A stretch of 64,000 nt of DNA. It comes from Actinoplanes sp. M2I2 (GTDB taxonomy: Bacteria > Actinomycetota > Actinomycetes > Mycobacteriales > Micromonosporaceae). Numbering within the stretch: position 1 is the first letter of the stretch; each line of letters opens with the position of its first letter. The DNA lies in the NCBI RefSeq assembly GCF_023544445.1, contig NZ_JALPVJ010000012.1, positions 186,001 through 250,000 on the forward strand, in the 5' to 3' direction. Positions 9,387 to 61,256 of the stretch are shown here, one piece after another. The position numbers and the translations under genes were made by a program. Below the pieces are notes generated by a model. It had not been told where the DNA came from, ran no database searches, and was given only the letters and a program-made list of their open reading frames with translations.

Positions 9387-9408
9387 TTTCTTCGGGCGGA
9401 GTGGGGGG

Positions 9409-10296
9409 CTATTTCACCGAGCCGAGCGAGAGCCCCTGCACCAGCTTGTCCTGGGCGGCGAAACCGGCCACCAGGACGGGCAGCGAGACCACGAAGGCGG
9501 CCGCGCAGAGCTGGGCCAGGAACAGGCCCTGGCTGGTGACGAAACTGGTCAGGAAGACGGGGGCCGTCTCCGCGACCGTGGCCGTGAGCACCCGGGCGAA
9601 CAGCAGCTCGTTCCAGCTGAAGATGAAGCAGATCAGCGCGGTGGCGGCGATGCCCGGAGTCACCACGGGGGCGATGACCGAGCGCAGCGTCTTGGTCAGG
9701 TTGGCCCCGTCCATCTGGGCCGCCTCGAGCATCTCGACCGGCACCTCGGAGAGGAACGAGCGCATCATCCAGACCGCGATCGGCAGGTTCATCGACGTGT
9801 AGAACAGGACGAGCAGCCAGATGTTGTCGAGCAGGCCGGTGTTCTGGGCGAACAGGTAGAGCGGCAGCAGGCCGGCCACCACCGGCAGCATCTTGGTGGA
9901 CAGGAAGAAGAACAGCACGTCGGTCCACTTCTTGACCGGCTTGATGCTCAGGGCGTACGCGGCGGGCAGCGACAGCAGGAGCACCAGCAGCGTGGACACC
10001 ACGCTGGCGGTCAGCGAGTTGAGCAGCGGCGGCCAGGGTGAGGCGCCGCCGGAGAAGAACTCGCGGTAGCCCTCCAGGGTCAGCGGCGCGAAGACGGCCG
10101 GCGGGTTCTGGGCGGCGTCGGTCTCGGAGTGGAACGAGGTCAGCACCATCCAGACGACCGGGAGCACGAACAGGATGCCGACCACCCAGGCGAGCAGCGA
10201 GAGCCAGACGTTGGCGCCCTCGCGGCGTTTCTTCACCGGGCGGCCGGCGTCGTCGCGGGTCGCCGGGACGGGCGCGGTGTCGGTCACTGTGCTCAT
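9409..10296 (-). CDS. carbohydrate ABC transporter permease (MalG type)
   Basis: A 295-residue inner-membrane permease with six hydrophobic helices. The EAA loop appears as EVPVEMLEAAQMDGANLTKTLRSVIAPVVTPG, the contact site for the ATPase. The N-terminal LPVVWMVLTSFHSETDA is typical of CUT1-family second permeases. The ATG at 10296 overlaps the stop of the upstream permease as ATGA, so they are coupled. It forms an importer with the upstream permease and the lipoprotein; no ATPase gene is linked. Confidence 0.92.
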   Translation of the reverse strand: MSTVTDTAPVPATRDDAGRPVKKRREGANVWLSLLAWVVGILFVLPVVWMVLTSFHSETDAAQNPPAVFAPLTLEGYREFFSGGASPWPPLLNSLTASVVSTLLVLLLSLPAAYALSIKPVKKWTDVLFFFLSTKMLPVVAGLLPLYLFAQNTGLLDNIWLLVLFYTSMNLPIAVWMMRSFLSEVPVEMLEAAQMDGANLTKTLRSVIAPVVTPGIAATALICFIFSWNELLFARVLTATVAETAPVFLTSFVTSQGLFLAQLCAAAFVVSLPVLVAGFAAQDKLVQGLSLGSVK

Positions 10297-11252: not shown

Positions 11253-11254
11253 GG

Positions 11255-12619: not shown

Positions 12620-12668
12620 GGGGCCTCCCCGGCGAGGCTTGCTGATCCCGGCGGCACCATCGACATCT

Positions 12669-12684
12669 GTGACACCGGTAACAC
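12669..12684. promoter_or_regulatory. palindromic operator candidate upstream of the sugar ABC operon
   Basis: GTGACACCGGTAACAC is an interrupted palindrome (GTG-NN-ACCGGT-NN-CAC) with a CG centre, as in many LacI-family operators. It lies 50 bases before the binding-protein start, in a suitable place for a sugar-responsive repressor. No regulator gene is adjacent. Confidence 0.45.
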
Positions 12685-12767
12685 CGGGCCTCAGTACATG
12701 CCTGAGATCGACACGATGTCAACCATTCGTCACGTTCCGTCGGACGAACGGGCACACCCGCCCGGTC

Positions 12768-12998
12768 CTATGAGGAAACGACCCGCGCCTGGTTGCCGAA
12801 GACCTCGACCACGTCGCCCGGGTGCAGCTGACGACCGCGACGGGTGTCCACCTCGCCGTTGACCGAGACGTCCCCGGAGGCGATCAGCACCTTGCCCTCC
12901 CCACCGGTGTCGGTGAGGTCGGCCAGCTTGAGGAACTGCCCGAGTCTGATCATGTCGCCGTCGATGGGGATGTCACGCATCCCGCCATCATCCGGCAT
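12768..12998 (-). CDS. small S4-domain RNA-binding protein
   Basis: A 76-residue protein made up almost wholly of one S4 fold: IRLGQFLKLADLTDTGGEGKVLIASGDVSVNGEVDTRRGRQLHPGDVVEV. The IRLGQFLKLA...G-GEAK-LI--G-V-VNGE--TRRGRKL--GD pattern is that of the YaaA/YbcJ-like stand-alone S4 proteins. These bind structured RNA, probably ribosomal; the exact target is unknown. A shorter start (MRDIPIDGDM, six residues later) is equally plausible because neither ATG has a clear ribosome binding site. Confidence 0.85.
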   Translation of the reverse strand: MPDDGGMRDIPIDGDMIRLGQFLKLADLTDTGGEGKVLIASGDVSVNGEVDTRRGRQLHPGDVVEVFGNQARVVSS

Positions 12999-45733: not shown

Positions 45734-46471
45734 TCAGGTGCCCGGCCGGCGCCCGATCAGCTTGACCGTCATGCCGATCTTGCCGACGTTCCAGTACGTC
45801 TTGGCGTCGTTCGGCAGCAGGTTGACGCAGCCGTGCGACCCGCGCCACTTGTCGTGGATGTAGGTCGTCGTCTGGTGGAAGCCCTTCCCGCCCTGGAAGC
45901 GCTGCCAGTAGGGCAGCCACACCTCGTACGGGTCGGACCACTCCTTCTTGGTGCGCTTGTTGATCTTGTAGGTGCCGGAGGGCGTGCGGTAGTTCTTCAT
46001 GCCCGTACGGACCACGGTCGGAGCGGTGAACTGCTTGCCGTTCTTCATGATCCACGACGTCTGCTGCGTCAGGTTGACGCAGAACGTGTAGCCCGACTTC
46101 TTCGGCTTGCAGGCCTTGAGACTGGTCGCGGCGAGGCGCTTGGCCACGTCGTACGTCGTGGGGCCGGCCAGTCCCGCGGCGGGCTGGATGCCGTACCGCT
46201 TCTGGAACTTCTTGATGATCGTGCAGTCGGCGGCGGACTGCTTGCCGTCGACCTTGGTCTTCCCGAAGCCGCCGAACTTGTTGATCAGCCCTTCGACCTG
46301 CTTCTGGTACTTCCCGGTGGCGCAACCGGCGGCGGCCTTGGTGACCACCGCCGCGGTGACCGGCGTCCGCGTGGCGGCGCCGGCACCGGCCGGTGCCAGC
46401 GCGACCACGCCGAGACCGCCGCCGACCATTGCCGCCAGGGCGGCTCCGGCCGCTACCCGTCTGGATCCCAC
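45734..46471 (-). CDS. exported L,D-transpeptidase (YkuD) with peptidoglycan-binding-like region
   Basis: A 245-residue protein; the GTG at 46471 was chosen because GGGGAGGA lies six bases upstream. Signal peptide about 1-33 (ending AGAGA). Residues about 45-120 carry paired cysteines and FQKRYGIQPAAGLAGPTTYDVAKRL, a PG_binding_1-like fold. The YkuD domain contains IHDKWRGSHGCVNLLPNDAKTYW with the catalytic Cys at about 215. It forms 3-3 peptidoglycan cross-links or attaches proteins to the wall. TPSGTYKINKRTK fits the family's T-P-x-G pattern. Confidence 0.92.
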   Translation of the reverse strand: MGSRRVAAGAALAAMVGGGLGVVALAPAGAGAATRTPVTAAVVTKAAAGCATGKYQKQVEGLINKFGGFGKTKVDGKQSAADCTIIKKFQKRYGIQPAAGLAGPTTYDVAKRLAATSLKACKPKKSGYTFCVNLTQQTSWIMKNGKQFTAPTVVRTGMKNYRTPSGTYKINKRTKKEWSDPYEVWLPYWQRFQGGKGFHQTTTYIHDKWRGSHGCVNLLPNDAKTYWNVGKIGMTVKLIGRRPGT

Positions 46472-46603
46472 TGTGGTTCCTCCCCAGGAAACGTGTGCGC
46501 ACATAGAAGCACAGCTACGCCGCTCACGGCTCCGAGGAAGGGAGCGTGGCGCGAAACCGGTAGGGCAGATCGGCTCGCGCGCACGCCGGTTGAGGAGATG
46601 CGA

Positions 46604-47629
46604 TCAGTATCGCGGCGTTGCGAAGTTCTGCACCCAGTACGGGGTGCGGTCGCGGGAGATGGCCAGCCCGACGCCCATCTCGCGCAGCCGGCAGTCGAGG
46701 ATGTTCTCGCGGTGCGAGCGGCTGTTCATCCAGCCGTCCACCACCTCCCACGGGCTGTCGGCGCCGCGCGCGATGTTCTCGCCGTAGCGCTTCCACCGGT
46801 AGCCGGCGTCGCTCACCCGGTCGCCCGCGCGCTCGCCGTTCGGCGACTCGTGGTCGAAGTAGCGGCGGCGGGCCATGTCCGACGCGTGCTGGTTGGCCGC
46901 CTTGATCAGGCGGCGGTCCAGGATGAACGGGGCACAGCCGGCCCGCCGCCGGTTCTGGTTGACCAGCACCAGGACCCGCTGCTGCACCGGGGCGGACGGG
47001 CTGGCCGAGACGTCCCGGGCGGTCACGGCCTGCCGGGCGGCGGCCAGGACACCGCCCGCGACGCGCTGCTGCCGGGCCGGTCGCTGCTGCTGCCGCTGCT
47101 GGGCCGCGCTCTGCTGCTGCTTCTGCCGGGCGGCGCTCTGCTGCTGCCTCTGGCGGGTGGCGCTCTGCTGCTGCTTCTGGCGGGCGGCGCGCTGATCGAG
47201 GTGCGGGCGCTGCGGGCTCAGGGGACGCTCGGCGCTCACCGGGCGCTGGGGCTGACGCCCGGCGGCGTCGGGCTGCTGCCGGGATGCGCGGTCGCGCTGC
47301 TGAGGACGTACGCGGTCATCGCGCCGGGCGTCGTCGTCGAGCCGCGGGCGCTCGGCCGGGCCGCGATCCGCGAACGGCTCACCGAAGGCCCGGTCGTCGC
47401 CGTGGAAGTCGTCGTCCCGGAAGTCGCCGTCGCCGAAGTCGTCATCGTGAAAGTCACCACCGCGGTAGTCGTGCCGGTCGGCGCGGTCGTCGCCGAACAG
47501 GCTCGGCCACCAGAAACTGGTCCAGCCCGGCGAGTCCGGCCTCTCGTCGGCGGCCGCCGAGGTCGCCACGACGCCGCCCGCGAGCAGAAGCGCCGCCGCC
47601 GCTGAGACCACCACGACTGGTTTCCGCAT
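46604..47629 (-). CDS. secreted CAP-domain (SCP/PR1) protein with low-complexity linker
   Basis: A 341-residue protein. Signal peptide about 1-27. Residues 45-100 are Asp/Phe/Gly-rich (GGDFHDDDFGDGDFRDDDF), then 105-200 are Gln/Arg/Pro-rich with RQKQQQSA repeats. The CAP domain (about 215-341) reads VLVLVNQNRRRAGCAPFILDRRLIKAANQHASDMA, DHESPNGERAGDRVSDAGYRW, ENIARGADSPWEVVDGWMNSRSHRENIL and YWVQNFATP, the YkwD pattern with conserved His/Glu residues. Function of bacterial CAP proteins is not fixed. It lies next to the L,D-transpeptidase, suggesting a wall location. Confidence 0.9.
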   Translation of the reverse strand: MRKPVVVVSAAAALLLAGGVVATSAAADERPDSPGWTSFWWPSLFGDDRADRHDYRGGDFHDDDFGDGDFRDDDFHGDDRAFGEPFADRGPAERPRLDDDARRDDRVRPQQRDRASRQQPDAAGRQPQRPVSAERPLSPQRPHLDQRAARQKQQQSATRQRQQQSAARQKQQQSAAQQRQQQRPARQQRVAGGVLAAARQAVTARDVSASPSAPVQQRVLVLVNQNRRRAGCAPFILDRRLIKAANQHASDMARRRYFDHESPNGERAGDRVSDAGYRWKRYGENIARGADSPWEVVDGWMNSRSHRENILDCRLREMGVGLAISRDRTPYWVQNFATPRY

Positions 47630-47933
47630 GCCCCGTAATCCCCATATCTCCCCGGGCCACCCGGCCGCTCCGGGTCACCTCCACCGGGAGTCAACGTCAC
47701 AAACCGGGCACGGTCACTTCCGAAATCGTGGTCGCTGCCGGCGCGACAACGGCCGGCATCGCTGCCAATCCTGCGTCCAACTGCGGTTTCACTGTCTCCG
47801 GCCGCAGCACGGGCGTCGCACAACCGCACAGACAATTCGGACAGTTCATGCGTACGGGGTAGTCCGGGGGTTTCGTTGTTGCCGTCCGCGCGGAGGTCGT
47901 CGCGACCCCGATCAGGATGGCAACCTCGTCGCG
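47630..47933. other. 304-base divergent intergenic region
   Basis: Lies between the CAP gene and the acyltransferase gene. It probably holds both promoters; I see no convincing -35/-10 pair. A Cys-rich minus-strand frame (MNCPNCLCGC...) ends at 47697 but has no ribosome binding site. Confidence 0.5.
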
Positions 47934-49607
47934 GTGCGCAATCGCTACCTGGATCTGCTCCGTGCCGCCGCAATTGTCCGGGTGATCGTCTACCACCTGT
48001 TCGGATGGCCCTGGCTCTCCGTCGTCCTGCCCGCGATGGGCGTCATGTTCGCCCTGGCCGGGTCGCTCACCGCCGCCTCACTGTCCAAGCGGGACGCCGG
48101 TCAGGTGGTGGTCTCCCGCCTGCGCCGCCTGCTCCCGCCCCTGTGGCTGCTGGGCGTGATCGCGGTGCCGGTCATGCTGGTCGCCGGCTGGGCCACGGAG
48201 AACGACGGCGAGCACCCGTTCAACCCGGCCACCCTGGCGTTCTGGATCCTGCCGATCGGCGACCCGCCCGGCAGCGACCAGGCCATCGACGTCTGGGAGC
48301 CGCTCTGGTATCTCCGCGCGTACCTCTGGTTCGTCCTGTTGTCGCCGGTGCTGTTCGCCCTGTGGCGGCGGATCGGGTGGGCCACCGTGGCGCTCCCCCT
48401 GGTGCTCATGGCCGTGCTGGACGTCACCGGCTTCGAGCTTCCCGACACCGCCGACTCGGCGCTGTGGGACTTCGTCACGTACGGGGCGTGCTGGATCGCG
48501 GGTTTCGCCCACCACGACGGCCGGCTGGCCCGGCTGCGGCCCTGGGTGGCGTTCCCGGTCGCGCTGGCCCTCGGGGCGGGTGCGGCCTACTTCGCGCACG
48601 ACTACGGCAGTTTCGACCTCAACGAGGTGGCCGAGTCGCAGGCCCTGTGGTCGCTGGCCTTCGTGCTGGTAGTGCTGCGCTGGCAGCCGCCGATGGGCTG
48701 GCTCGCCCGGATCAAGCCGCTCGACCACGCCGTCTCCGTCATCAACGCGCGAGCCGTGACGATCTACCTGTGGCACAACACCGCGATCGCGGCGGTGTGG
48801 CCGGTGCTGACCGTGCTCGCGCTCGGCGACCTGGGCGACCGCCTGAGCCCGGTGTCCGACCTGGCGGTGGCGCTGGCGCTGACGCTCGGGGCGATGGTCG
48901 CCTTCGGCTGGGCCGAGGACGTCGCCGCCCGGCGCCGCCCGCGCCTGTGGCCGAGCACGGGCCGAGCGGCCACCCCGCCGCCGGAGAACGCGCCGCGCGA
49001 AGCGATCGCGCCGGACCGGCCGGCCGCGATGGCCCGGTCGTCGGCTGCCGCCGCGATGGCCCGGACACCGGCGAATTGGCCGCCGATCCCCCGCGGCACC
49101 GGTGGGGACGCCGCTGCGGGCGGGAACGCCGCGACGGCTGTCGACGACCCGGCGGAGAGGCGGGGTGGGACAGCGGACCTGTCCGGTCACGCCGTGGGCG
49201 AGGGCGGCGCCGAGCCGGATGGCCGCCACCAGTCGCCGGGCGGGGCCGGGCAGCTCGACCCGGGACTGCTGCGGCGCGATCCGGGGCCGCTGCGGCGCGA
49301 TCCGGGACTGCCGGTGGCGGGTCGGCGGGTGGATCCGCTCGACAGCGGTACGCCGGCTCGCGATCCGTTCCCGCCGGGCGGGCCGGCTGGTGGTTCGTTC
49401 GCGCCGGGCGGGCCGACCGGCGACTCATTCAGCGCGGATGGGTCGGCCGAAGATCCGTTCAGCGCGGGTGGGCCGGCCGGAGATCCGTTCATCGGCGAAA
49501 TGCCGGCTCGCGATCCGCTCGACGCCGGCGGCCCGGTGCGCGGGAAGCCCGACTGGTTCGGCGGTGGGCGTCGTCCGGATCATGACCCCGAGCGCGAGGA
49601 GCCGTGA
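47934..49607 (+). CDS. membrane acyltransferase-3-like protein with repetitive cytoplasmic tail
   Basis: A 557-residue protein from the GTG at 47934 (RNRYLDLLRAAAIVRVIVYH). The first helix carries LDLLRAAAIVRVIVYHLFGW, the acyltransferase-3 start with the key His. About ten helices end near residue 330. WEPLWYLRAYLWFVLLSPVLFALWRR and VTIYLWHNTAIAAVWPVL are also typical. Such proteins O-acylate surface sugars or antibiotics; the substrate is unknown. The final 200 residues are Gly/Pro/Ala-rich and end with decapeptide repeats (DPFxxGGPAG). The frame upstream of 47934 has no start with a better ribosome binding site. Confidence 0.82.
   Translation: MRNRYLDLLRAAAIVRVIVYHLFGWPWLSVVLPAMGVMFALAGSLTAASLSKRDAGQVVVSRLRRLLPPLWLLGVIAVPVMLVAGWATENDGEHPFNPATLAFWILPIGDPPGSDQAIDVWEPLWYLRAYLWFVLLSPVLFALWRRIGWATVALPLVLMAVLDVTGFELPDTADSALWDFVTYGACWIAGFAHHDGRLARLRPWVAFPVALALGAGAAYFAHDYGSFDLNEVAESQALWSLAFVLVVLRWQPPMGWLARIKPLDHAVSVINARAVTIYLWHNTAIAAVWPVLTVLALGDLGDRLSPVSDLAVALALTLGAMVAFGWAEDVAARRRPRLWPSTGRAATPPPENAPREAIAPDRPAAMARSSAAAAMARTPANWPPIPRGTGGDAAAGGNAATAVDDPAERRGGTADLSGHAVGEGGAEPDGRHQSPGGAGQLDPGLLRRDPGPLRRDPGLPVAGRRVDPLDSGTPARDPFPPGGPAGGSFAPGGPTGDSFSADGSAEDPFSAGGPAGDPFIGEMPARDPLDAGGPVRGKPDWFGGGRRPDHDPEREEP
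49370..49545 (+). repeat. about six 30-base in-frame repeats in the acyltransferase tail
   Basis: Decapeptides DPFPPGGPAG, GSFAPGGPTG, DSFSADGSAE, DPFSAGGPAG, DPFIGEMPAR and DPLDAGGPV follow in register. Confidence 0.85.
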
Positions 49608-49704: not shown

Positions 49705-49811
49705 GGCGGGCGGGCACGGGGAATCGACGCATCCACAGAAAGCGACGCACCCCCTCCACCCGTGTGAAGCATTCTCGGATAACACAGCTAAAGTCTGGCT
49801 AATCTGAGCGA

Positions 49812-50312
49812 ATGCGGCAGTACGGACAGGCGCCGACCCACGCCGACGAGGGTGAGGGCGCCGGGGTTCTCGCGCTCGTCTTCCGGGCCGGGCCCCTGCT
49901 CTGCGCCCTCGGGCTCGACGAGGTCATCGAGACGCTGCGCCCGCTCGAGACGCGGCCGCTGGCCGGCACGCCGGCGTTCGTCCGGGGCATCACCGTGCTG
50001 CGCGGTGTCCCCACCCCCGTCATCGACGTGTCCCGGCTGCTCGGCGGCGGCCCGGCCGAGGCCGACCGCTTCCTGGCCGTCCGCACCGAGCGGGGCGCCA
50101 TCGCGCTCGCCACCGGCGACATCCTCGGGATCCGGCACGTCGAGGCCGAGCCCACCGGCGGTCACCCGGCTCTGCTCGGCGGGGGCAGCACCCGGCTGGT
50201 CGCGGGCGTCGGCACGCTGGGCACCGAGCCGCTTCTGCTGCTGCAGAGCATGCGTGCCGTTCCCGACGAGGTCTGGGAAGCGGCCGCCGTGAACGCGGGC
50301 GAGCCGTCGTGA
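49812..50312 (+). CDS. CheW-like adaptor (first in chemosensory operon)
   Basis: A 166-residue single CheW domain: VLALVFRAGPLLCALGLDEVIETLRPLETRPL, FVRGITVLRGVPTPVIDVSRLLGGG, RFLAVRTERGAIALATGDILGIRHVE. The RGxxxPVIDL-like element is the receptor/CheA interface. It couples the receptor to CheA. GTGA overlap with the cheR gene. TAAAGT about 20 bases upstream may be a -10. Position corresponds to WspB in the Pseudomonas system. Confidence 0.9.
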   Translation: MRQYGQAPTHADEGEGAGVLALVFRAGPLLCALGLDEVIETLRPLETRPLAGTPAFVRGITVLRGVPTPVIDVSRLLGGGPAEADRFLAVRTERGAIALATGDILGIRHVEAEPTGGHPALLGGGSTRLVAGVGTLGTEPLLLLQSMRAVPDEVWEAAAVNAGEPS

Positions 50313-51709
50313 GCGCGCCCGCGCAGATCACCCGGTTCCGCGAGCTGCTGGCCCGGGTGCTCGGCTGGACCTTCGCCGACAACGACGCCCAGCAGCTGGC
50401 CGGGCTGTTGCGCGACCGGGCGGCCGAGCACGGGATGAGCCGGGACGCCTACCTGGCCCGGCTGGCCACGCGGCGGTGGGAGCCCGAGGTCACCGCCCTG
50501 ATCGAACGGCTCAGCATCACCGAGACGTACTGCTTCCGGCACGGCGAGCAGTTCGCCGCGCTGCGGGAGGACGCGCTGCCCGAGCGGGCCGCGGCGCGGG
50601 CCTCACAGCGGGTGCTGCGGATGCTGTCGGTGGCGTGCTCGTCCGGGGAGGAGGCGTACTCGCTGGCGATCACCGGGCGTCAGGTGCGGCCCGACCCGGA
50701 CTGGATCGTCAGCGTGATCGGGGTGGACGCGAACCCGCTGGTGCTGCGCAAGGCCGAGGCGGCCTGGTATTCGGCCTGGTCGCTGCGGGAGACGCCGGAC
50801 GCGGTGCGCCGCCGCTGGTTCCGGCCGGACGACGGCGGCTACCGGGTGGTCGACGAGATCCGCCGGCTCGTACGGTTCCAGCGCACCAACGTGGCCGAGC
50901 CGGACGACAGCCTGTGGCGCCCCGGCCAGTACGACGTGATCTTCTGCCGCAACCTGCTCATGTATCTCACTCCGGCCGTGACCTCCGCGCTGGTCGAGCG
51001 GATGACCGCGGCGCTGGCGCCGGGCGGCTACCTGTTCCTGGGGCACACCGACTCGCTCGGCAGCGATCCGGACGGGCTCGAGCTCCGGCACACCCGCCAG
51101 TCGTTCTACTACCGCCGCGCGGGCGGGCCGACCCCGCAGCGCCTCGGCACGCCCCCGGTCACCGAGCAGGCTCGGACCGTCTCGGGGCCCGCCGAGGCCC
51201 TGGCCGTCGACAACACGTACGACCGGGCCCTGGATCTGCTGCGGCAGGAGCGCTTCACCGATGCGCTGGAACTGGCCGCGGCACCTCGCCCGGGTCCGCT
51301 GCGCCAGCGTGATCGGCTGCTGCACGGCGTGCTGCTGGCGCAGGTCGGACGGCTCGACGAGGCGGTCGCGCTGGCCCGGCGGCTCAGCGACGAGAACGGC
51401 CTCAACCCGGACGCGCACCAGCTGCTCGGGCTGTGCCTCGAGGACGGTTCGGCGGTCGCGGAGGCCATCGGCCAGTACCGTCTGGCGGCGTACCTGGACC
51501 CGGGTTTCGCCCTGCCCCGGATGAGGCTGGGTCAGCTCGCGAGGCGGCAGGGTGACGACCGCGGCGCGGCGGCCGAGCTGGAGCGGGCGCTGGATCTGCT
51601 CGCCCGCGAGGACGACGAGCGGATCACGTTGTTCGGCGGCGGTTTCGGCCGGATCGCCCTCACCGTGCTGTGCCGCTCCGAGCTGGACGCCTGCGGGGTC
51701 CACCCGTGA
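50309..51709 (+). CDS. CheR-type methyltransferase with C-terminal TPR domain
   Basis: A 466-residue protein. The N-terminal helical domain (about 5-75) is followed by the SAM-binding domain with the motif LSVACSSGEEAYSLAI. IGVDANPLVLRKAEAA and YDVIFCRNLLMYLTPAV are also CheR hallmarks. From about residue 300 on there are TPR-like helices: YDRALDLLRQERFTDALELA, LAQVGRLDEAVALARRLSDEN and LGLCLEDGSAVAEAIGQYRLAAYLDPGF. It methylates receptor glutamates. The CheR-TPR fusion is like WspC and FrzF. Overlaps both neighbours by four bases. Confidence 0.95.
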   Translation: MSAPAQITRFRELLARVLGWTFADNDAQQLAGLLRDRAAEHGMSRDAYLARLATRRWEPEVTALIERLSITETYCFRHGEQFAALREDALPERAAARASQRVLRMLSVACSSGEEAYSLAITGRQVRPDPDWIVSVIGVDANPLVLRKAEAAWYSAWSLRETPDAVRRRWFRPDDGGYRVVDEIRRLVRFQRTNVAEPDDSLWRPGQYDVIFCRNLLMYLTPAVTSALVERMTAALAPGGYLFLGHTDSLGSDPDGLELRHTRQSFYYRRAGGPTPQRLGTPPVTEQARTVSGPAEALAVDNTYDRALDLLRQERFTDALELAAAPRPGPLRQRDRLLHGVLLAQVGRLDEAVALARRLSDENGLNPDAHQLLGLCLEDGSAVAEAIGQYRLAAYLDPGFALPRMRLGQLARRQGDDRGAAAELERALDLLAREDDERITLFGGGFGRIALTVLCRSELDACGVHP

Positions 51710-52275
51710 CCGCCGGGCCGGGCAGCGTCGCCAGGCGGGTGCGCCGGTTGCGCGAGGACTTCGACCAGTCGTTCGCCGAGCCCGCCCGCAGCCACGACGA
51801 GGAGCACTTCGAGCTCCTGACGATCCGGGCCGGCGGACGCCCGTACGCCATCAAACTCTCGCAGAGCTCGGGCGTGCACCCGGACCGCCCGGTGACGCCG
51901 CTGCCCGGGCCGCAGCCCGCGCTGCTCGGCCTGGCCGGGTTCGCGGGGGCCGTGGTGCCCGTCTACGACCTGGCCGCGCTGCTCGGCCACCCGGTCGGCG
52001 AGGTGCCCCGCTGGCTGGTGCTCGCGGCCGGCACACCGCGGCTCGGGCTGGCCTTCCACGAGCTCGACGGGCACGTCCGGGCCGCGGCCACCGACATCAT
52101 CCGCGACTCGGGTGAGACCGGCGACGACGGCGGCCACGGACTGGGCGGCACCCTGCGCGGGCTCGTCGACCTGCCCGGCGGCAGCCGCCCGATCATCGAC
52201 ATCCCGGCCATGCGATCCCTGGTGCACGCCCTGGCCGGGCATGCGCAGGCCGCCGACGAGGAGGACGCACCATGA
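51706..52275 (+). CDS. second CheW-like adaptor
   Basis: A 189-residue protein with GTG start overlapping the CheR stop (GTGA). A basic helical extension ([27 protein letters not shown]) precedes the CheW domain: [56 protein letters not shown]. The C-terminal part has [25 protein letters not shown]. It probably plays the WspD role. Stop overlaps the MCP start as ATGA. Confidence 0.88.
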
Positions 52276-53744
52276 TGGCCGAACGCACCTTCGGCACGAA
52301 GCTGGCCGCCGGCTTCGGGCTGACCCTGGCGCTCACGCTGCTGATGACGGCGACCTCGGTGCTGACCCTGCGCTACGTCATGAGCAGCAAGGACAACGTG
52401 ATCACGTCGGCCCGGGTGAATCTGGTCGGCTCCGAGGCGCTCAGCGCCTACATGGAGTCGCGGATCGCCGACTACCGCGCCTATCTGCTGGTCGGCACCG
52501 ACGAATATCTCACCGCCACCGCGGCCGACCGGACGCGATTCCTCGGCCAGGTCGCCACGCTGAGGAAGTCGATGACCGACCCGACTTCCCTCGAGCTGTT
52601 GGACACCGTCTCCACCGTCGAGGAGAAGCACGCCACGGTGGTGGCCGGGGTGATCGCCGAACGGGCGGGTCTGAACGACCTGCGCAACGTCCGGCAGCTG
52701 GCCGGCAACCAGGAGCTGAAAGCGGCCCGGATCGCCGTTCAGAAGGCGATCGCCGCCCTGATCGAGCGGCAGTCGACCGTGGTGGACGCCCGCCGGGACG
52801 AGTCGTCGACCCGCGCCACCATGGCCATCTTCTTCATCATCGGGATCGGCGCCCTGCTGATTCTCGGAGCCGCCGCGGTGGCCTGGAAACTGAGCCGCGA
52901 CCTGCGCCGGGAGGTGGGCGCCGCGGTCGGGCACATCCAGAGCTCGTCGGCCGAGCTCGAGGCGGCCGCCGCCCAGCAGGCCTCGGGCGGCCGCGACCAG
53001 GCCAGCGCGATGAACGAGATCACCACGACGATCAGCGAGCTGCTGATCACCTCCCGGCAGATCGCGGACAGCGCCCAGCGGGTCTCCAAGATCGCCGAGG
53101 AGACGGCCGAGGCGGCCCGCACCGGTGACGCCACAGTGGAGCAGACCCGGGCGTCGATCGCGGCGATCCGCACCCAGGTCGACCAGATCGTGCAGCACAT
53201 GCTGGCCCTGGGCGAGAAGTCGCAGCAGATCGGCGGGGTGGCCGACCTGGTGTCGGAGCTGGCCGAGCAGACCAACATCCTGGCCATCAACGCCACGATC
53301 GAGGCCAGCGGCGCCGGCGAGTGGGGCCGCCGGTTCGCGGTGGTGGCCGAGGAGATCCGCAAGCTCGCCGACCGTACGGCCGGGTCGGCCAAGGAGATCC
53401 GGGCGCTCATCGAGGACGTCCGCGGCGCGGTCAACACGACCGTGATGGCGACCGAGATCGGGGCCAAGGCGGTGGACTCCGGCTCGCGGCAGTTCGACGA
53501 CGCGACCAGCTCGTTCCGCCGGATCGCCGGGCTGGTCGCCACCACCAGCGACGCGACCCGCGAGATCGAGCTGTCCACCAAACAGCAGACCACCGCCGTC
53601 GAGCAGGTCAACATCGCGGCCTCGGACACCGCCCGGGTCACCCGCGAGACCGAGGCCAGCGCCGTGCAGACCAAGCAGACCGCCGCGCATCTCACCACGC
53701 TCTCCAGCGAGCTGCTGGACCTGGTCGGCACCGGGCGGCACTGA
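52272..53744 (+). CDS. methyl-accepting chemotaxis protein
   Basis: A 490-residue receptor. Helix one ([21 protein letters not shown], about 12-35) and helix two ([22 protein letters not shown], about 180-202) flank a helical extracytoplasmic sensor of about 140 residues, probably a CHASE3 or four-helix bundle type. No clear HAMP follows. The signalling hairpin tip is [47 protein letters not shown]. Glu/Gln-rich flanks offer methylation sites. The ligand is unknown. It sits in the middle of the operon, unlike wspA which is first. Confidence 0.93.
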
Positions 53745-53796
53745 TGACCGGCTCCTACCGCGGGCGCTCGTCCGGCGCCGTCCGGCGCGGTCCGTC

Positions 53797-55926
53797 ATGA
53801 CGAGCCGCGATCCGCTGCGCTACTTCCGGATCGAGGCGCGTGAGCTGGTCGACCAGATCAGCTCGGGCGTGCTCGATCTGGACCAGCAACCCGAGCCCGA
53901 CGTGGTGGCCCGGCTGCTGAGGTTCGCGCACACCCTCAAGGGCGCGGCCCGGGTGGTCAAGCAACAGGAGATCGCCGACCGCGCGCACGAGTTCGAGGAG
54001 GTGCTCGTCCCGCACCGCGACGAGCGCGTCCCGGCGCTGCCGGCCGATCAGATGCGCGAGCTGCTGCGCCTCAACGACGAGATCGCCGGGTACGTGACCG
54101 CCCTGTCCGCGCCGGCCGCGGCCCCGCCGGCGCCCGTCGAGCCCGAGGCGCCGATCCGCACGGTTCCCCTGAACGAGCCGACCACGCAGGCCGAGGTGGA
54201 CCAGGCGCACGTCGACGCCGAACTGGCCCGGGGCGCCGACGCGGCCTCGGACCGGCCCGAGCGGGCCGCCACCGCCGACCTCGACGACCTGCTCGACGCG
54301 ATCGGCGAGGCCAGCTCCCGGATCGCCCCGCTCCGCGACGGCGGCCGGACGCTGGCCCGTCTGCACCGCAAGGTGGAGACGCTGGGCGAGCGCATGCGCA
54401 TCGGGCGCACCACCGTGTCGGACTCGTCCGCCCGCACCTCGGTCCGGCGCCTCGCCGGCGAGCTCGGTGCGCTCGGCCGCCGCCTCACCGACGCCGTCGA
54501 CCAGGTCGAACGCGAGCTCGACGAGGTGCGCGGCCGCGCCGAAGGGCTGCGCCTGGTGCCGGCCGGGTCGATCTTCACGGCGCTGCGGCGGGCCGTCCGG
54601 GACGCCGCGGACGGCGAGGGCAAGCGGGTGCGGTTCCAGGCCTCGGGCGCCGACGTGCGGATGGGCCCCAACCTGCTCAACCTGATCAGCGGCGCGTTCC
54701 TGCACGTCGTCCGGAACGCGGTCGTGCACGGCATCGAGCCCGAGGCGCAGCGCCTGGCCGCCGGCAAGCCGGCCGAGGGCACGGTCGGCGTCCACGTCGA
54801 GCGGCGCGGCCGGTACGCCGAGTTCCGCTGCGTCGACGACGGGCGCGGCTTCGACCTGGCCGCGTTGCGCCGCACCGCCGAGGAGCGCGGCCTGCTGGCC
54901 CCCGGCGCCGATCCGGCCCCCCAGGCCCTGATCGACCTCGTGCTGCACGGCGGGATCAGCACCGCCCCCGGGGTCACCGACGTGGCCGGCCGCGGCATCG
55001 GGATGGACGTGGCCCGGGACGTGGCCCTGCAACTGGGCGGGGAGGTCTCCATCGTCAACCGGCCGGGCGAGGGGGCCACCGTACGCCTCGTCGTGCCGCT
55101 GACCTTGCTGAGCATGAACGGCCTGATCGTCGAGGCCGGCGGGACGACCGCGACGATGCCGCTGGACTCTGTGCTCCGCTGTGTGCGCCTGAGCGCCGAC
55201 GAGATGGCCGCCGCGACCGCCACCGCCCGGCTGGCCCACGAGCGTGAGGTGCTGCCGTTCCTGCCGCTGAGCCAGGCCCTGCGGATCGCCCCGGCCGAGG
55301 GCGGCGCCGGTTCCGGGGTGGCGGTGGTGCTCGCGGCCGACCGCGACACGGTGGCGATCGGCGTCGACCGGCTGGCCGGCACGTCCACTCTGGTCGCCCG
55401 GCCGCTGCCCGACCTGGCGCCGGCCGCCCCGGTGATCGGCAGCGTGTCGATCGACCTGGACGGCAACCCGCGGCTGGTCCTGGACGCGCACGGGCTGGTG
55501 GCCGAGGCCCGCCAGGAGAGCACCACGGCCCGCGGTGACAGCAGCCTCCCGGTCAAGCCGCGGATGCCGATCCTGGTCGTGGACGACTCGCTGACGACCC
55601 GCATGCTCGAGCGCAGCATCCTCGAGTCGGCCGGCTACGAGGTCGATCTGGCGGCCTCCGGCGAGGAGGGCCTGGAGAAGGCCCGCGCCCGCCGGTACGG
55701 CCTCTACCTGACCGACATCGACATGCCGGGAATCGACGGCTTCACGTTCGTCGCGCGGACCCGGGCCGATCCCGCCCTGGGCCACGTGCCGGCGATCCTG
55801 GTGAGCTCGCGGGCCAGCGCCGAGGACCGGCGCCGCGGCACCGAGGTGGGCGCGTCGGCGTACGTGGTCAAGGGCGAGTTCAACCAGGAGGAGCTGCTCG
55901 CCCACATCCGGAGGCTGATCCTCTGA
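53797..55926 (+). CDS. CheA histidine kinase with C-terminal receiver (WspE-like)
   Basis: A 709-residue hybrid. The HPt domain has the phospho-His45 in LLRFAHTLKGAARVV. A Pro/Ala linker (about 108-150) precedes the dimerisation helices. The HATPase has the N-box FLHVVRNAVVHGIEPEAQ, VDDGRGFD and GRGIGMDVARDVALQLGG. A CheW-like regulatory domain spans about 425-570. The receiver (about 590-709) has ILVVDDSLTTRMLE with the phospho-Asp at about 640 (TDIDMPGIDG) and the Lys in YVVKGEF. It phosphorylates itself, its own receiver, CheB and possibly the next kinase. Stop and CheB start share one base (TGATG). Confidence 0.95.
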   Translation: MTSRDPLRYFRIEARELVDQISSGVLDLDQQPEPDVVARLLRFAHTLKGAARVVKQQEIADRAHEFEEVLVPHRDERVPALPADQMRELLRLNDEIAGYVTALSAPAAAPPAPVEPEAPIRTVPLNEPTTQAEVDQAHVDAELARGADAASDRPERAATADLDDLLDAIGEASSRIAPLRDGGRTLARLHRKVETLGERMRIGRTTVSDSSARTSVRRLAGELGALGRRLTDAVDQVERELDEVRGRAEGLRLVPAGSIFTALRRAVRDAADGEGKRVRFQASGADVRMGPNLLNLISGAFLHVVRNAVVHGIEPEAQRLAAGKPAEGTVGVHVERRGRYAEFRCVDDGRGFDLAALRRTAEERGLLAPGADPAPQALIDLVLHGGISTAPGVTDVAGRGIGMDVARDVALQLGGEVSIVNRPGEGATVRLVVPLTLLSMNGLIVEAGGTTATMPLDSVLRCVRLSADEMAAATATARLAHEREVLPFLPLSQALRIAPAEGGAGSGVAVVLAADRDTVAIGVDRLAGTSTLVARPLPDLAPAAPVIGSVSIDLDGNPRLVLDAHGLVAEARQESTTARGDSSLPVKPRMPILVVDDSLTTRMLERSILESAGYEVDLAASGEEGLEKARARRYGLYLTDIDMPGIDGFTFVARTRADPALGHVPAILVSSRASAEDRRRGTEVGASAYVVKGEFNQEELLAHIRRLIL

Positions 55927-56990
55927 TGATCCGTGTCCTGCTCGTGGAGGATTCCGCGACCATGCGCCACCACCTGCGCGAGTCGCTCGCCGCCGACCCG
56001 GAGCTGCAGGTGGTCGGCGAGGCGACCGACGGCGGCCAGGCGGTGGAGCTGGTCGCGCGGCTGCGGCCCGATGTGATCACGATGGACATGATGCTGCCGA
56101 CGATGACCGGCCTGGTCGCCACCGAGCACATCATGGCCGAGCACCCGACGCCGATCCTGGTGGTCTCCTCGGCCGACCGGCGCGAGTTGTTCAGCACGTA
56201 CAACGCGCTGGCCGCGGGCGCGGTCGACGTGCTGGAGAAGCCGCGGGGCGACGGCACGGACGCCGACTGGGGGCGGCGGCTGTGCGCGGCCGTGCGCCTG
56301 GTCTCGCGCATCCGCGTGATCACCCATCCCCGGGCCCGGCTGGACGGCCGCGGGCGGGTGAGCCCCGAGCCGGTCGCCCCCGCGCCGGCCCCGTCGCTGA
56401 CCGACGCGCTGCGCGTGGTGGCACTCGGCGCCTCGACCGGTGGCCCGGGCGCGCTGACCGAGCTGCTGCGCGCGCTGCCGGTCGGCTTCCTGCCCCCGGT
56501 GCTGTGCGTCCAGCACATCGCGGCCAGCGAGCCGTTCGCCGTGGCGTTCTCCGACTGGCTGGCCGGGCAGACCGGCCGCGACGTCAGCTACGCCCGGGAC
56601 CGTACGCCGGTGGCCGCCCTGTCCGGCCGGGTCGTGCTCGCCCCGCCCGACCGGCACCTGCTGGTGCGCGACGGCATGGTCCGGGTCAGCGACGGGCCGC
56701 CCCGGCACTCCTGCCGCCCGTCGGTCGACGTGCTGTTCGAGTCGGTGGCCGCCGAGTACGGCGCGAGCGCGGCCGGCTGCCTGCTCACCGGCATGGGCCG
56801 CGACGGCGCCGGGGGCCTGCTGACCATGCGGTCGCGGGGGGCCGTCACCTTCGCCCAGGACGAGGCCAGCTGTGTCGTCTACGGCATGCCCCGCGAGGCC
56901 GCCCTCATCGGCGCGGCCGCCTACATCCTGCCGCCGGCCCGGATGGCCGCCCGGCTGGTCGAGCTCCAGCCCACCGGGAGCCGTCGATGA
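55926..56990 (+). CDS. cheB: CheB protein-glutamate methylesterase
   Basis: A 354-residue protein. The receiver (1-120) has the Asp pocket VEDS and phospho-Asp54 in ITMDMMLPTMTG. The esterase domain has the catalytic Ser in LGASTGGPGAL, the His in CVQHIAASEPFA and the Asp in LLTGMGRDGAGGLL. It removes receptor methyl groups when phosphorylated by CheA, giving adaptation. Position matches WspF. Stop overlaps the next start (ATGA). Confidence 0.96.
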   Translation: MIRVLLVEDSATMRHHLRESLAADPELQVVGEATDGGQAVELVARLRPDVITMDMMLPTMTGLVATEHIMAEHPTPILVVSSADRRELFSTYNALAAGAVDVLEKPRGDGTDADWGRRLCAAVRLVSRIRVITHPRARLDGRGRVSPEPVAPAPAPSLTDALRVVALGASTGGPGALTELLRALPVGFLPPVLCVQHIAASEPFAVAFSDWLAGQTGRDVSYARDRTPVAALSGRVVLAPPDRHLLVRDGMVRVSDGPPRHSCRPSVDVLFESVAAEYGASAAGCLLTGMGRDGAGGLLTMRSRGAVTFAQDEASCVVYGMPREAALIGAAAYILPPARMAARLVELQPTGSRR

Positions 56991-58981
56991 CCCACCGCGT
57001 GCTGATCGTCGACGACAGCCTCACCGTACGGATGGACCTGCACGAGGCCTTCGAGGCGGACGGCTTCGGCACTGTCCTGTGTGCCACCGGCGCCGAGGCC
57101 CGGGCCGCGTTCGTCGGCGACGACTTCGACGTGGCGGTGCTCGACGTGCTGCTGCCCGACGCCGACGGGCTGGAGCTGCTCACCGAGCTGCGCGGCATGC
57201 CGAGCCGGGCCCGGGTGGTGACCGTGCTGCTCAGCAGCGAGGACGAGGTGGCCGACCGGCTCGCCGGGCTGCGCATCGGCGCGGACGAGTACGTCGGAAA
57301 ACCGTACGATGCAGGATACGTCGTCGCCCGGGTGCGCCAGCTGCTGCGCGACGGCCCGGCGGGCTCGGACGACCGCACCACCGTGCTCATCGTGGACGAC
57401 AGCCGGACCTTCCGCGAGCAGCTGCGCGAGCTGCTCGAGGCCGAGGGGTACGCCGTGCTGACCGCCCCGAGCGGCGAGGACGGCCTGCGCACGGCGGCCG
57501 ACCGGCGCCCGCAGGCAATCATCGTCGACGGCGTGATGCCCGGCATCGACGGCGCCACGGTGATCCGGCGCATCCGCCTCGACCCGGCCCTGCGCGACAT
57601 CCCGTGCATCCTGATGACCGCGGCCGACGACTACGCCACCGAGCTGCAGATGCTCGACGCCGGCGCCGACGCCTTCGTGCGCAAGCAGCAGAACCTGGCG
57701 ATCGTGCCGGCCAAGCTCAACGCAGTGCTGCGGCAGAGCGCCGAGCAACTGCCGATCGAGGTCACCGGCAGCCTGCACGGGCCGAGCAAGGTGCTCGCGC
57801 TCACGCCCGACCGGCAGCGGCTGGCCGATCTGGCGGCGGCCCTGCGCGACGAGGGCTACGACGTGGTTCCGGTGGCGGGCACCGAGGACGCTCTCGACCT
57901 GCTGGCCGAGCAGCCGGTCGACTGCATCGTGCTGGGTCAGGGGCTCTCCGGCGAGCTGGGCCGGGAGGCCTGCCGGCGGATCAAGGAGGTGCCGGTGATC
58001 GGCGAGACCCCGGTGGTGATGACCGGGTCGACCGACGACGACATGCTGGCCTGCCTGGAGTCGGGCGCCGACGACTACGTGCGGGCGGATTCCGGCGCCG
58101 AGGCGTTGCGGGCCCACGTGCGCACCCAGATCCGGCGCAAGCAGTCGCACGACGAGAGCCGCCGCATCCGCGAGGAGCTGATGCGCCGCGAACTGGACGC
58201 GGCCGAGGAGCGCTCGGCCCGGCAGCTCGCCGAGACCCGGGCGGCGCTGGTCGAGGAGCTGGAGTGGCGCAACCGCGAGCTCGAGGCGTTCTCCGGTTCG
58301 GTCTCGCACGACCTGCGCGGCCCGCTGCAGGTGATCAGCAGCTTCGCCGAGCACATGCTCGACGACGAGGGCGACCCGCTCAGCAAGGAGGCGCGGCGCC
58401 GGTTGAGCCGCATCCAGGCGGCCGCGCACCGGATGGCCGACCTGGTCGAGTCGCTCCTGATCCTGGCCCGGGCCAGCCGGGGTGACCTGCGACGGGCCGA
58501 GTTCGACCTGACCGTGACGATCTGGCAGGTGATCGGCGAGGTCGAGGCCCGCGACCCGGCACACAAGGTGGCCTTCACGGTCCACGAGAGCATGCGCGCG
58601 GACGCCGACGAGGGCCTGGTCCGGGTCATCCTGGAGAATTTGATCAACAACGCCGTGAAGTTCACCCGCAAGGTCGAGCGGCCGGCGGTGGAGGTGGGCC
58701 GGGCCGACGCGGGCTTCTACGTGCGCGACAACGGGGCCGGCTTCCCGGCGGGCAAGGCCGGCGAGCTGTTCCGGCCGTTCGCCCGCCTGCACAGCGCCGA
58801 GGACTTCCCGGGCACCGGCATCGGCCTGACCACGGTGCACCGGGCGGTCGAACGCCACGGCGGCGAGATCTGGGCCGAGGGCGAGGACGGGCACGGCGCG
58901 ACCTTCTGGTTCACGCTGCCACCCACCCCGGCCCCGGCGGCCACGCCGGACCGGCGGGCCCAGGCCCGCCGGCACAGCTGA
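56987..58981 (+). CDS. hybrid histidine kinase with three N-terminal receiver domains
   Basis: A 664-residue cytoplasmic protein beginning MTHRVLIVDDSLTVRMDL; the frame is open upstream only as a shadow of cheB. REC1 (1-122) has phospho-Asp53 in AVLDVLLPDADG. REC2 (about 130-250) has Asp181 in IIVDGVMPGIDG. REC3 (about 268-385) has lost both the acidic pocket (VLALTPDRQ) and phospho-Asp (IVLGQGLSGELG). A coiled coil (about 388-430) leads to HisKA with His441 in SGSVSHDLRGPLQV, then HATPase (ENLINNAVKF, VRDNGAGFPAG, GTGIGLTTVHRAV). It probably takes phosphate from CheA at REC1/REC2 and passes signal to an unlinked response regulator. Confidence 0.94.
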   Translation: MTHRVLIVDDSLTVRMDLHEAFEADGFGTVLCATGAEARAAFVGDDFDVAVLDVLLPDADGLELLTELRGMPSRARVVTVLLSSEDEVADRLAGLRIGADEYVGKPYDAGYVVARVRQLLRDGPAGSDDRTTVLIVDDSRTFREQLRELLEAEGYAVLTAPSGEDGLRTAADRRPQAIIVDGVMPGIDGATVIRRIRLDPALRDIPCILMTAADDYATELQMLDAGADAFVRKQQNLAIVPAKLNAVLRQSAEQLPIEVTGSLHGPSKVLALTPDRQRLADLAAALRDEGYDVVPVAGTEDALDLLAEQPVDCIVLGQGLSGELGREACRRIKEVPVIGETPVVMTGSTDDDMLACLESGADDYVRADSGAEALRAHVRTQIRRKQSHDESRRIREELMRRELDAAEERSARQLAETRAALVEELEWRNRELEAFSGSVSHDLRGPLQVISSFAEHMLDDEGDPLSKEARRRLSRIQAAAHRMADLVESLLILARASRGDLRRAEFDLTVTIWQVIGEVEARDPAHKVAFTVHESMRADADEGLVRVILENLINNAVKFTRKVERPAVEVGRADAGFYVRDNGAGFPAGKAGELFRPFARLHSAEDFPGTGIGLTTVHRAVERHGGEIWAEGEDGHGATFWFTLPPTPAPAATPDRRAQARRHS

Positions 58982-58985: not shown

Positions 58986-61256
58986 CTACTTCACGTACGT
59001 CAGGCCGTCCGAGATGACCGTCGGGCGGCCCTTGGTGCCCAGCACGACCACCGAGACGGTGTGCGTCTTGGCGGTCACCGCCTTGACCCACAGGGTCTGC
59101 CGGTGAGTCGTCGTCGCGGCCTTGGTGTCGACGGTCGCCACCTTGACGTTGTCGACGTAGACGACGGCCTGGCCGGTCGTCGGCATCCGGGTGAAGGTCA
59201 GCGCGGCCGAGCGCCCGTTGAAGGTGTACGTCAGCTTGGCGTTCTTGGCCCCGGCGGCCAGCGCCTTGCCACCGAGGTAGCTGGTGGCGGACGACCGGGC
59301 GCTCCACGTGCCGGTGCGCTTGGCCGAGGTCTCCGGCATCTGGACGACCGTCCGCGTGACGGCCGCGGTGCCCGTGTTGTAGGCCATGTCCACGGCCTCC
59401 ACCGCGTACTTCATGGCGACGTTGGGCTTGACGTTCGCGTTCCACACGGTGGAGGTGCCGGTCATCGCCACGGACGCCGGCGAGGTGGCCGCCTGCCGGC
59501 TGATCCGGCCGTTGTTGTCGGCCGACTTGAAGGTCACGGCGACCGGCACCGACGTGGCCGAAGAGGTCCCGGTCTTCAGCGCCACCGACGGCGCCGTCGG
59601 GAAGGTCGGCTTGACCACGTCACCGACGACCTTGGTGACCGGCGTCGTGTCGGTGACGCCGGCGCGGTGCACGACGCGGACGGCGACGTTGTGCGAGCCG
59701 GGCGGGACGGCGACGGATGCGGAGCCGCTCGCCTTGCCGCCCGTGGCGGTCGCGGCCACCTTGCCGTCGATGAGCACGTCGAACCGGCCGGCCTGGGCCG
59801 GGTCGCCGCCGACGCTCCAGCGGACCTGCGCCTTGTCCCTCACGTACGGGGTGCCGGTGGTCGGCACGCCGCCGGAGACCGAGGTGATGGCCAGGCCGGG
59901 CAGCGCCGCGCGGGCCCGGATCGTGCCCATCAGCGGATAGAACATCACGCCCGGGCATTCGGTCACGGTGCCGTCCCGGTGCCCGGCGATGCGCGGGAAC
60001 GTCACCGTCGAGCCGAGCGGCCACTTGAGGCCGGTGACCCCGGCGGTCATCTGCGCGGTCGTGGTCGGGTCGAAGCCGTACGCCCCCAGGCGCGCCGCGG
60101 CGACCTTGGCGATCGTGGTCAGCGCGGCGTTGCTGGGCCGCACCGAGGTGTAGTCACCGATCAGCGCGATGCCGGTCGATCCGGTGTTGAAGCCGGCGAC
60201 GTGCGCGCCGACCACCGCGGCGGAGACACCGCCCTTGCGGCCCTCGTAGAGCGTGCCGCACTTGTCGACGAGGTAGTTGTACCCGAGGTCGTCGAGGCCC
60301 TTCTCCTGAATGTCGTTGGCCATGATGGACTTGACGAACTTCGGCACGTCGGCGCAGGCCACCGGGTTGTCCGCGGTGCCGGTGTGGTGCACCCAGACCA
60401 TCTTGACGCCCTCCTTGGCGATGGTCGGCGGGGCCTTCACCAGCTTTTCGTCGGCGCCCCACTTGGCCCGCGAGACGTAGGCGGGCAGGGGCGGCGCGGT
60501 CGCCGGCGGCGCGGGGGTCGTGGGCGCGGCGGTCGTGGGCGCGGTCTTCGTGGGCGCCGCGGTCGTGGGGGCCGCGGTCGTGGGCGTGGCCCCGGTGGTG
60601 GCCGGGGGCGCGACCGCGGTGGCCGACGGCGGCAGGCCCTTGACCGGCGCCTTGGTGGTGGCCGGGGCCGGGGACGCCGGCGGACTCGCCGGGACGGGCT
60701 CACCGCCGCCGCGGCCACCGGCCGTGGGCGCGTCCGGGTCGATCAGGGCGAGGCGCAGCTCGGCCGGCAGCGGCTTGGTGCCCGAGCCGACGAGCCGGGC
60801 GGCCACGCCGTCGGAGGGGCCGGTCCACAACGGTTCCAGGGCGCCGCGCGACTGGGCCCGCTCGGCCTTCAGGTCGGCCGCCTCCTCGGCGACCTCGAGC
60901 GACCGCCAGCCGGTCCAGGCGCCGGTCCGGACGTTGCGGGTCCGCACCTGAACGGTGCCGTCGGGCCGGTCGGCCGGGCTCTTCCAGCTGACGCTGAGCA
61001 GGCTGAACCGCTTGGTCGAGCGCTGCGGGAGCGTGAAGGACCGGCCGAGCGACGCCAGGGCCACCCGGTCGACGCGGACGCCGGTGGGCTCCGCCGTCGC
61101 GGCCACCCGGGCCCCCGCGGGCGCCGGCGCCGGGGCGACCGGCCCGGGCAGCGCCACCGGAACCGGGTCGGAGGGCCACGCCAGGACGGCGACCCCGCCG
61201 CCCGCCGCGAGAACCGCGGCCGCGGCCCCCATACCTATCGCCAGTCGACGCCGCAC
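58986..61256 (-). CDS. exported PGRP-type N-acetylmuramoyl-L-alanine amidase
   Basis: A 756-residue secreted protein with GTG start and a signal anchor (about 5-28). Residues 60-180 form a beta-rich domain seen in actinobacterial PGRP amidases (GTVQVRTRNVRTGAWTGWRSLE). A Thr/Ala/Pro linker (about 195-265) looks like an O-mannosylation target. The amidase domain (about 268-450) has KMVWVHHTGTADN, DLGYNYLVDKCGTLYEGR, GFNTGSTGIALIGDY and AGHRDGTVTECPG, giving the zinc His/His/Cys set. The C-terminal 300 residues are beta-rich Ig-like repeats. It cleaves the muramoyl-alanine bond. It ends four bases from the chemosensory operon end (convergent). Confidence 0.92.
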   Translation of the reverse strand: MRRRLAIGMGAAAAVLAAGGGVAVLAWPSDPVPVALPGPVAPAPAPAGARVAATAEPTGVRVDRVALASLGRSFTLPQRSTKRFSLLSVSWKSPADRPDGTVQVRTRNVRTGAWTGWRSLEVAEEAADLKAERAQSRGALEPLWTGPSDGVAARLVGSGTKPLPAELRLALIDPDAPTAGGRGGGEPVPASPPASPAPATTKAPVKGLPPSATAVAPPATTGATPTTAAPTTAAPTKTAPTTAAPTTPAPPATAPPLPAYVSRAKWGADEKLVKAPPTIAKEGVKMVWVHHTGTADNPVACADVPKFVKSIMANDIQEKGLDDLGYNYLVDKCGTLYEGRKGGVSAAVVGAHVAGFNTGSTGIALIGDYTSVRPSNAALTTIAKVAAARLGAYGFDPTTTAQMTAGVTGLKWPLGSTVTFPRIAGHRDGTVTECPGVMFYPLMGTIRARAALPGLAITSVSGGVPTTGTPYVRDKAQVRWSVGGDPAQAGRFDVLIDGKVAATATGGKASGSASVAVPPGSHNVAVRVVHRAGVTDTTPVTKVVGDVVKPTFPTAPSVALKTGTSSATSVPVAVTFKSADNNGRISRQAATSPASVAMTGTSTVWNANVKPNVAMKYAVEAVDMAYNTGTAAVTRTVVQMPETSAKRTGTWSARSSATSYLGGKALAAGAKNAKLTYTFNGRSAALTFTRMPTTGQAVVYVDNVKVATVDTKAATTTHRQTLWVKAVTAKTHTVSVVVLGTKGRPTVISDGLTYVK

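Follow-up and report, generated by a model that had tools for sequence, protein, structure and literature searches.

A conserved chemosensory operon ending in a three-receiver histidine kinase in Actinoplanes and in bacteria of other phyla

The window analysed here is a 64,000-nucleotide stretch (G000:C5:186001-250000) of the 9.58 Mb genome of Actinoplanes sp. M2I2, a soil bacterium whose lineage forms swimming spores, and it carries a chemosensory operon at positions 49812-58981. Open reading frames (ORFs) and Pfam matches agree on seven co-directional genes on the forward strand, which encode CheW, CheR with TPR repeats, a second CheW, a methyl-accepting chemotaxis protein (MCP), CheA with a receiver (REC) domain, CheB and a kinase with three receivers followed by HisKA and HATPase domains. 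Successive genes overlap by 4 bases or 1 base, except for 52 bases before cheA, as an earlier reading made from the letters alone (the sequence-only reading) had described. The mcp-cheA junction varies among 21 relatives, with an overlap in 11 and a spacing of 1-85 bases in 10 (starts were chosen by a script that, in some of the rows, preferred the one closest to the end of mcp), and we therefore attach no fixed meaning to the 52-base gap.

The operon opens with cheW1 (49812-50312; PF01584, E 3e-17) and cheR (50309-51709; PF01739, E 8e-46). The CheR C-terminus bears TPR-like repeats: TPR_16 and TPR_2 matched below the Pfam cut-offs, and a profile built from 22 CheR sequences matched designed TPR chains over about residues 344-431 among solved structures, where searches returned domain-level matches only. 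The GTG start of cheW2 (51706-52275; PF01584, E 1e-11 with the longer start) was picked by its 4-base overlap with cheR. The receptor gene, mcp (52272-53744; PF00015, E 5e-36), encodes hydrophobic segments at residues 12-37 and 179-209, as judged by hydropathy, with a CHASE3-like part between them that scored below the cut-off; HAMP was not matched in the Pfam scan. The hairpin tip lies at residue 343 and the C-arm spans 144 residues, a length that is 144-146 residues in the 19 of 22 MCPs that show the tip pattern and that fits the 40H class, a fit judged by length. The second hydrophobic segment passes almost directly into this hairpin of about 40H length.

Pfam places Hpt (His45), HATPase, CheW-like and C-terminal REC (Asp640) domains in CheA (53797-55926). 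Neither P2 nor the dimerisation domain was matched in the same scan, the latter being said to occur in all CheA proteins in the part of the source consulted (PMC10782961). CheA His45 is kept in all 69 rows in which the column is filled (7 rows are gapped) and Asp640 in 76/76. CheB (55926-56990; PF01339, E 7e-53) joins a receiver (Asp54) to a methylesterase domain in which Ser170, His197 and Asp293, presumably the catalytic residues, are kept in 80/80. The last gene (56987-58981) encodes an output kinase of 664 residues composed of REC1 (Asp53), REC2 (Asp181), a degenerate REC3 (Gly317), a linker, HisKA (His441) and HATPase (three PF00072 stretches, PF00512 and PF02518); PAS was unmatched by Pfam in this protein. 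GGDEF was unmatched by Pfam in the seven operon proteins, a genome-wide GGDEF search not having been made.

The seven genes recur as a unit within the Micromonosporaceae. A kinase query gave some match at E <= 1e-30 in 51 of 121 family genomes and a full-length homologue in 22 of them, which include that of the window and carry six genus codes. All 21 family loci fetched beyond the window hold the seven genes in the same order, so the association goes beyond chance. In the window's genus, the kinase is found at E <= 1e-150 in 62/67 genomes, and the nearest row over five concatenated proteins is Paractinoplanes maris (91%). The kinase was unmatched at E 1e-60 in a plasmid collection. One locus of the genus, L096 (Actinoplanes sp. 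TFC3), retains cheA-cheB-kinase, and the other four genes are unmatched in the roughly 7 kb upstream.

We then scanned one genome per species with an alignment of 22 kinases and used the best 80 of 241 related stretches, comprising 50 from Micromonosporaceae and 30 from elsewhere, the latter 48-55% identical over nearly their full length. The non-family titles name Acidobacteria, Myxococcota and Deltaproteobacteria, Proteobacteria, Planctomycetota, Chloroflexi, Spirochaetaceae, Acidimicrobiaceae and Rokubacteria. By record title, this amounts to eight phyla including Actinomycetota; every one of the 30 non-family records is a metagenome bin, and each label is only as good as its bin. The complete order is present in 64/80 loci (48/50 Micromonosporaceae and 16/30 others); among the remaining 16, 11 run off the contig and five differ (L096, L121, L125, L136 and L141). 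Conservation of the last gene with the other six, the lack of which would by the sequence-only reading have refuted it, is thus what both the fetched and the scanned loci display. Two of the differing loci have unusual arrangements. L136, a 5973-base stretch of a proteobacterial bin, presents cheB and the kinase, then cheW1, cheR and cheW2, as a permuted or tandem module would; L121, from a myxococcal bin, has at 6850-12908 two matches resembling the three-receiver kinase, 40% and 52% identical to that of the window, with receiver matches in between.

In both a five-gene tree (34 rows) and a kinase tree (44 rows), one branch separates all Micromonosporaceae from Acidimicrobiaceae. The five-gene tree recovers an Acidobacteriota group and an Acidimicrobiaceae pair, each at 100, with Myxococcota and Planctomycetota rows scattered, and in the kinase tree Myxococcota require 8 changes. 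The kinase occurs in 1/296 genomes of a sample across Actinomycetota (E <= 1e-100), namely that of the window, and in 4/235 of the phylum of L120, the seed genome included (E <= 1e-150). This patchy spread suggests transfer between phyla without proving it. Kinase distances correlate with those of CheR, MCP, CheA and CheB at r 0.925-0.959 over 66 loci. Since the same seven genes occur in distantly related bacteria, the unit appears to be an old signalling module with two kinases.

Receiver sites of the output kinase were read from MAFFT columns. REC1 and REC2 each keep their five receiver residues in 81/81 kinases (Ser83 is Thr in 2), and His441 and the ATPase sites Asn555, Asp581, Gly583 and Gly609 are invariant in the same set. 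In the 30 non-family kinases, REC3 is the domain of highest identity (mean 0.70) and retains all five sites in 29, the exception being L144. Among the 51 family kinases, only that of Virgisporangium aliadipatigenens (L142) has all five; Lys367 is left in 3, Asp317 in 7 and the acidic pair in 2. Mean identity across 11 diverse family members is 0.51 for REC3 versus 0.70 for REC1 and 0.74 for REC2. The losses follow a rough order, from an intact domain, through loss of the Thr and one pocket acid (two other Virgisporangium) and loss of the Lys with the Asp mostly kept (Dactylosporangium), to loss of all sites (Actinoplanes and kin). This order is not strict, the acidic pair being still present in L117 and the Asp already gone in L109. 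REC3 has decayed by degrees within the Micromonosporaceae; its chemistry is lost in most of the family, where it may have at most a structural or docking role. The three receivers ascribed earlier to the window kinase are all there as Pfam stretches, but the third has no phosphorylation site.

The Wsp operon runs wspA-F with the MCP first. Its six upstream part types are shared with the window, where the order is CheW-CheR-CheW-MCP-CheA-CheB and the MCP stands fourth (systems compared by order and description). The sequence-only reading held that a kinase had replaced WspR in this actinobacterium. We reject this local replacement: gene order differs, Wsp was confined to beta- and gammaproteobacteria in the survey sections consulted (PMC8552884), and in records of eight phyla the kinase accompanies the other six genes. 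Because the same seven genes, kinase included, recur across phyla, the kinase is a shared component of long standing in this module and not a local substitute for WspR. Burkholderia does have a receiver-kinase in WspR's place, WspH, which is described as separately transcribed and upstream (PMC8552884); the window kinase, unlike WspH, is the last gene of its operon, has three receivers and overlaps cheB by 4 bases. An output through cyclic di-GMP (c-di-GMP) could also lie one step removed, if the kinase phosphorylated an unlinked REC-GGDEF protein. The likeness of the parts list to Wsp would fit such a route, as would the number of GGDEF domains in Actinoplanes species, the highest in an Actinobacteria survey according to the part consulted (PMC10746217). 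However, mutating wsp genes of the B. cenocepacia H-system, which ends in a kinase, is reported to leave c-di-GMP unaltered (PMC8552884, in part), and the regulators linked to the kinase at other loci (see below) are single receivers. We regard this route as very unlikely.

The closest studied mechanism is Rhodospirillum centenum Che3, with Burkholderia WspH as the second precedent. According to the sections consulted (PMC3868531), the R. centenum cluster, compared by its parts list, resembles the window in uniting CheA-REC, two CheW, CheR, CheB, an MCP and a kinase with N-terminal receivers, and it controls a developmental decision; CheA3 phosphorylates REC1 of CheS3, which in turn phosphorylates CheY3. 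CheS3 combines PAS and an HWE-type kinase with two receivers, of which the second lacks the Asp, whereas the window kinase has three receivers and HisKA with no PAS match; CheY3 is encoded inside its cluster, whereas the window operon has no stand-alone CheY gene. ACF systems have been reported in three Actinoplanes species, and 40H receptors pair with ACF (PMC10746217, in part). The window may resemble this class in its CheA with a C-terminal REC and its receptor of about 40H length; ACF is a broad class without a single defined output, in contrast to the sharply conserved set described here. A C. coralloides cluster has another gene order, and the text covered names no three-receiver kinase in it (PMC6194562). 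In the literature covered, as titles and abstract openings, a three-receiver kinase in such operons is not described.

The locus also has a counterpart in the genus model. In the text available (PMC11064477), the che3 cluster of A. missouriensis (from AMIS_52400) begins immediately after the AT3 gene atsA, and the window operon likewise follows an AT3 acyltransferase gene. That gene (47862-49607, forward strand; PF01757, E 2e-28; start codon uncertain) lies directly upstream of, and outside, the seven-gene unit. In L190, presumed to be A. missouriensis, an AT3 gene with a 450-residue reading, the length of AtsA, directly precedes the seven genes; it is 61% identical to the window AT3 over 375 residues, and the seven genes are 56-77% identical (kinase 77%). 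By position and identity, we assign the window AT3 as the positional orthologue of atsA and the operon as che3, a cluster already named. che3 was described with an MCP and a CheA-CheY fusion, and the sections covered do not describe the three-receiver kinase, the cross-phylum module or the decay of REC3 (PMC11064477).

Sequence beyond the kinase is available at 28 of the 30 non-family loci. At 15 of these 28, a single-domain regulator directly follows (scoring >100 bits against the set; in L131 a frame change breaks the gene in two), consisting in Pfam of a receiver domain alone, which we take to be 'Rcp1-like'. In 8 of these 15 loci, the scan showed the next gene to encode a two-receiver hybrid kinase; at L121, neither of the two ORFs that come next matched a family. 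No Micromonosporaceae operon has a regulator after the kinase, the sole match above 90 bits there being an opposite-strand gene about 10 kb away in L052.

Unlinked relatives of this regulator were considered as partners. Close relatives (E <= 1e-50) occur in 13/22 operon-bearing versus 0/99 other family genomes, and at the 7 of these 13 loci that were fetched (L180, L181, L182, L183, L186, L187 and L189) the preceding kinase shares 40-46% identity with the core of the operon kinase (7/7); at L180, L181 and L187, Pfam identifies a PAS-HisKA kinase and then a REC-PAS-HK-REC hybrid. We rejected this relative as a general partner: it is absent from the window's genome at E <= 1e-50, and weaker relatives (E <= 1e-18) occur in 83/121 genomes irrespective of the operon. 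AsfR, described in the part consulted as an orphan receiver of A. missouriensis (PMC11960193), was the other candidate. In G443, a 138-residue ORF with the published AsfR residue quintet is separated from flagellin by about 10 kb. Matches (E <= 1e-30) are found in 13/22 operon-bearing genomes and also in 5/99 operon-free ones, with none in Dactylosporangium or Virgisporangium, and AsfR was likewise set aside as a specific partner. The window's genome has an AsfR-like single receiver (G000:C67:344314-344700; 65% identical to the A. missouriensis ORF) 7-10 kb from its flagellin genes (C67:351285-354337).

The sequence-only reading noted no flagellar gene, which is true of the window; the genome, however, has two Flagellin_N matches on contig C67. 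It also has two further strong CheR loci, one about 30 kb from flagellin, whose regions give weak cross-matches with the operon. Across the family, Flagellin_N scores above the cut-off in 33/121 genomes, and the operon is present in 22 of these 33 versus 0 of the other 88; by genus, it is present in 6/10 flagellin-positive versus 0/34 (Fisher 3e-5, uncorrected for phylogeny). The operon might accordingly serve as an accessory input to zoospore chemotaxis, its array feeding a CheY of the flagellar system via the kinase. The family-wide co-occurrence would fit such a role, as would the CheR locus near flagellin in the same genome. Against it, 5 of the 67 genomes of the window's genus, all 67 of which have flagellin, show no kinase match at E 1e-150, and flagellin is found in 14/29 non-family genomes with the operon and not shown in 15/29 (bins of unstated completeness). 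These two sets indicate that the tie to flagella reflects family history or a shared life style and is not obligatory. Moreover, che3 of A. missouriensis is stated, as an unpublished result in the text available, to be seemingly unrelated to zoospore chemotaxis (PMC11064477). We find an accessory zoospore input quite unlikely; the same statement supports the earlier suggestion of an alternative-function type of system.

We favour, with moderate confidence, a chemosensory array that stands alone and feeds a cascade of two kinases. The receptor, with two transmembrane segments, and the two CheW proteins would control autophosphorylation of CheA at His45, CheR-TPR and CheB would adapt the receptor, and the CheA receiver (Asp640) probably drains phosphate. 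CheA would deliver its output to REC1 (Asp53) and/or REC2 (Asp181) of the last-gene kinase, and not to a CheY or a cyclase, and phosphorylation there would turn the HisKA-HATPase core (His441) up or down. The core would in turn phosphorylate a response regulator, the next-door single-domain protein in many other loci and an unlinked one in Micromonosporaceae; a terminal kinase relaying to an unlinked regulator, as first proposed from the sequence, is probable. The system may act in sporulation or in the surface phase of the life cycle, and not in swimming.

Alternatively, CheA might have its target elsewhere, and the three-receiver kinase might drain CheA phosphate or dephosphorylate the regulator of another kinase. 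The tethered receiver of CheA3 was proposed as a sink in the sections consulted (PMC3868531), and the decay of REC3 implies that not every receiver must signal. His441 and the four ATPase sites are invariant, however, which would be unnecessary in a pure sink; the regulator that follows the kinase in the 15 informative non-family loci also argues against this explanation, which we deem unlikely. Several points weigh against the two-kinase cascade itself. Phosphotransfer from CheA to the kinase would, within the family, rest on precedent; family operons are confined to flagellin-positive genomes; and 13/28 informative non-family loci have no full regulator gene (1 is cut by the contig end, 12 have none). 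Over the 17 non-family loci, the correlation of kinase distances falls to r 0.40-0.60, against 0.45-0.75 for other gene pairs in those loci. As the regulator is absent from the operon and its close relative from the window's genome, the last phosphotransfer step has no named partner.

The operon neighbours look envelope-related: around the seven genes, 45734-49607 and 58986-61256 encode a YkuD L,D-transpeptidase, a CAP-domain protein, the AT3 acyltransferase and an Amidase_2 protein. Of 50 named Micromonosporaceae loci, 29 have an AT3 match on the upstream side, in some cases at a distance from the operon; none of the 10 loci of Dactylosporangium, Catenuloplanes and Virgisporangium has one. 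The flanks are partly common to the window's genus and a single neighbouring genus, and elsewhere they are different; the conserved unit is therefore the seven genes. A -10-like TAATCT (49800-49805, forward strand) ends six bases before the cheW1 start, and a script found TAA[T/C]CT-N6-[A/G]TG in 17/50 loci, among them the window and all 14 close relatives of the first alignment (L088 is ambiguous, with an in-frame start further on). This arrangement might reflect leaderless transcription; scans for sigma-70 consensus promoters and for terminators each returned 0 sites.

The two-kinase chemosensory module is real, conserved and under-described. A broader proposal, whose chances we consider evenly balanced, is that these operons form a distinct chemosensory subclass of patchy occurrence (in eight phyla, judged by title) whose hallmark is a dedicated three-receiver kinase gated by CheA, and that in Micromonosporaceae the regulator left the operon, after which REC3 decayed by degrees (intact in V. 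aliadipatigenens, partial in other Virgisporangium and in Dactylosporangium, lost in Actinoplanes). If true, this would supply a natural gradation in which to study the function of a third receiver, and strains with an intact, partly decayed or fully decayed REC3 would allow a direct test of receiver logic. It would also bring a clearly delimited family to the small number of chemosensory systems known to end in a second kinase, and the che3 cluster of the Actinoplanes model would gain a concrete, testable circuit.

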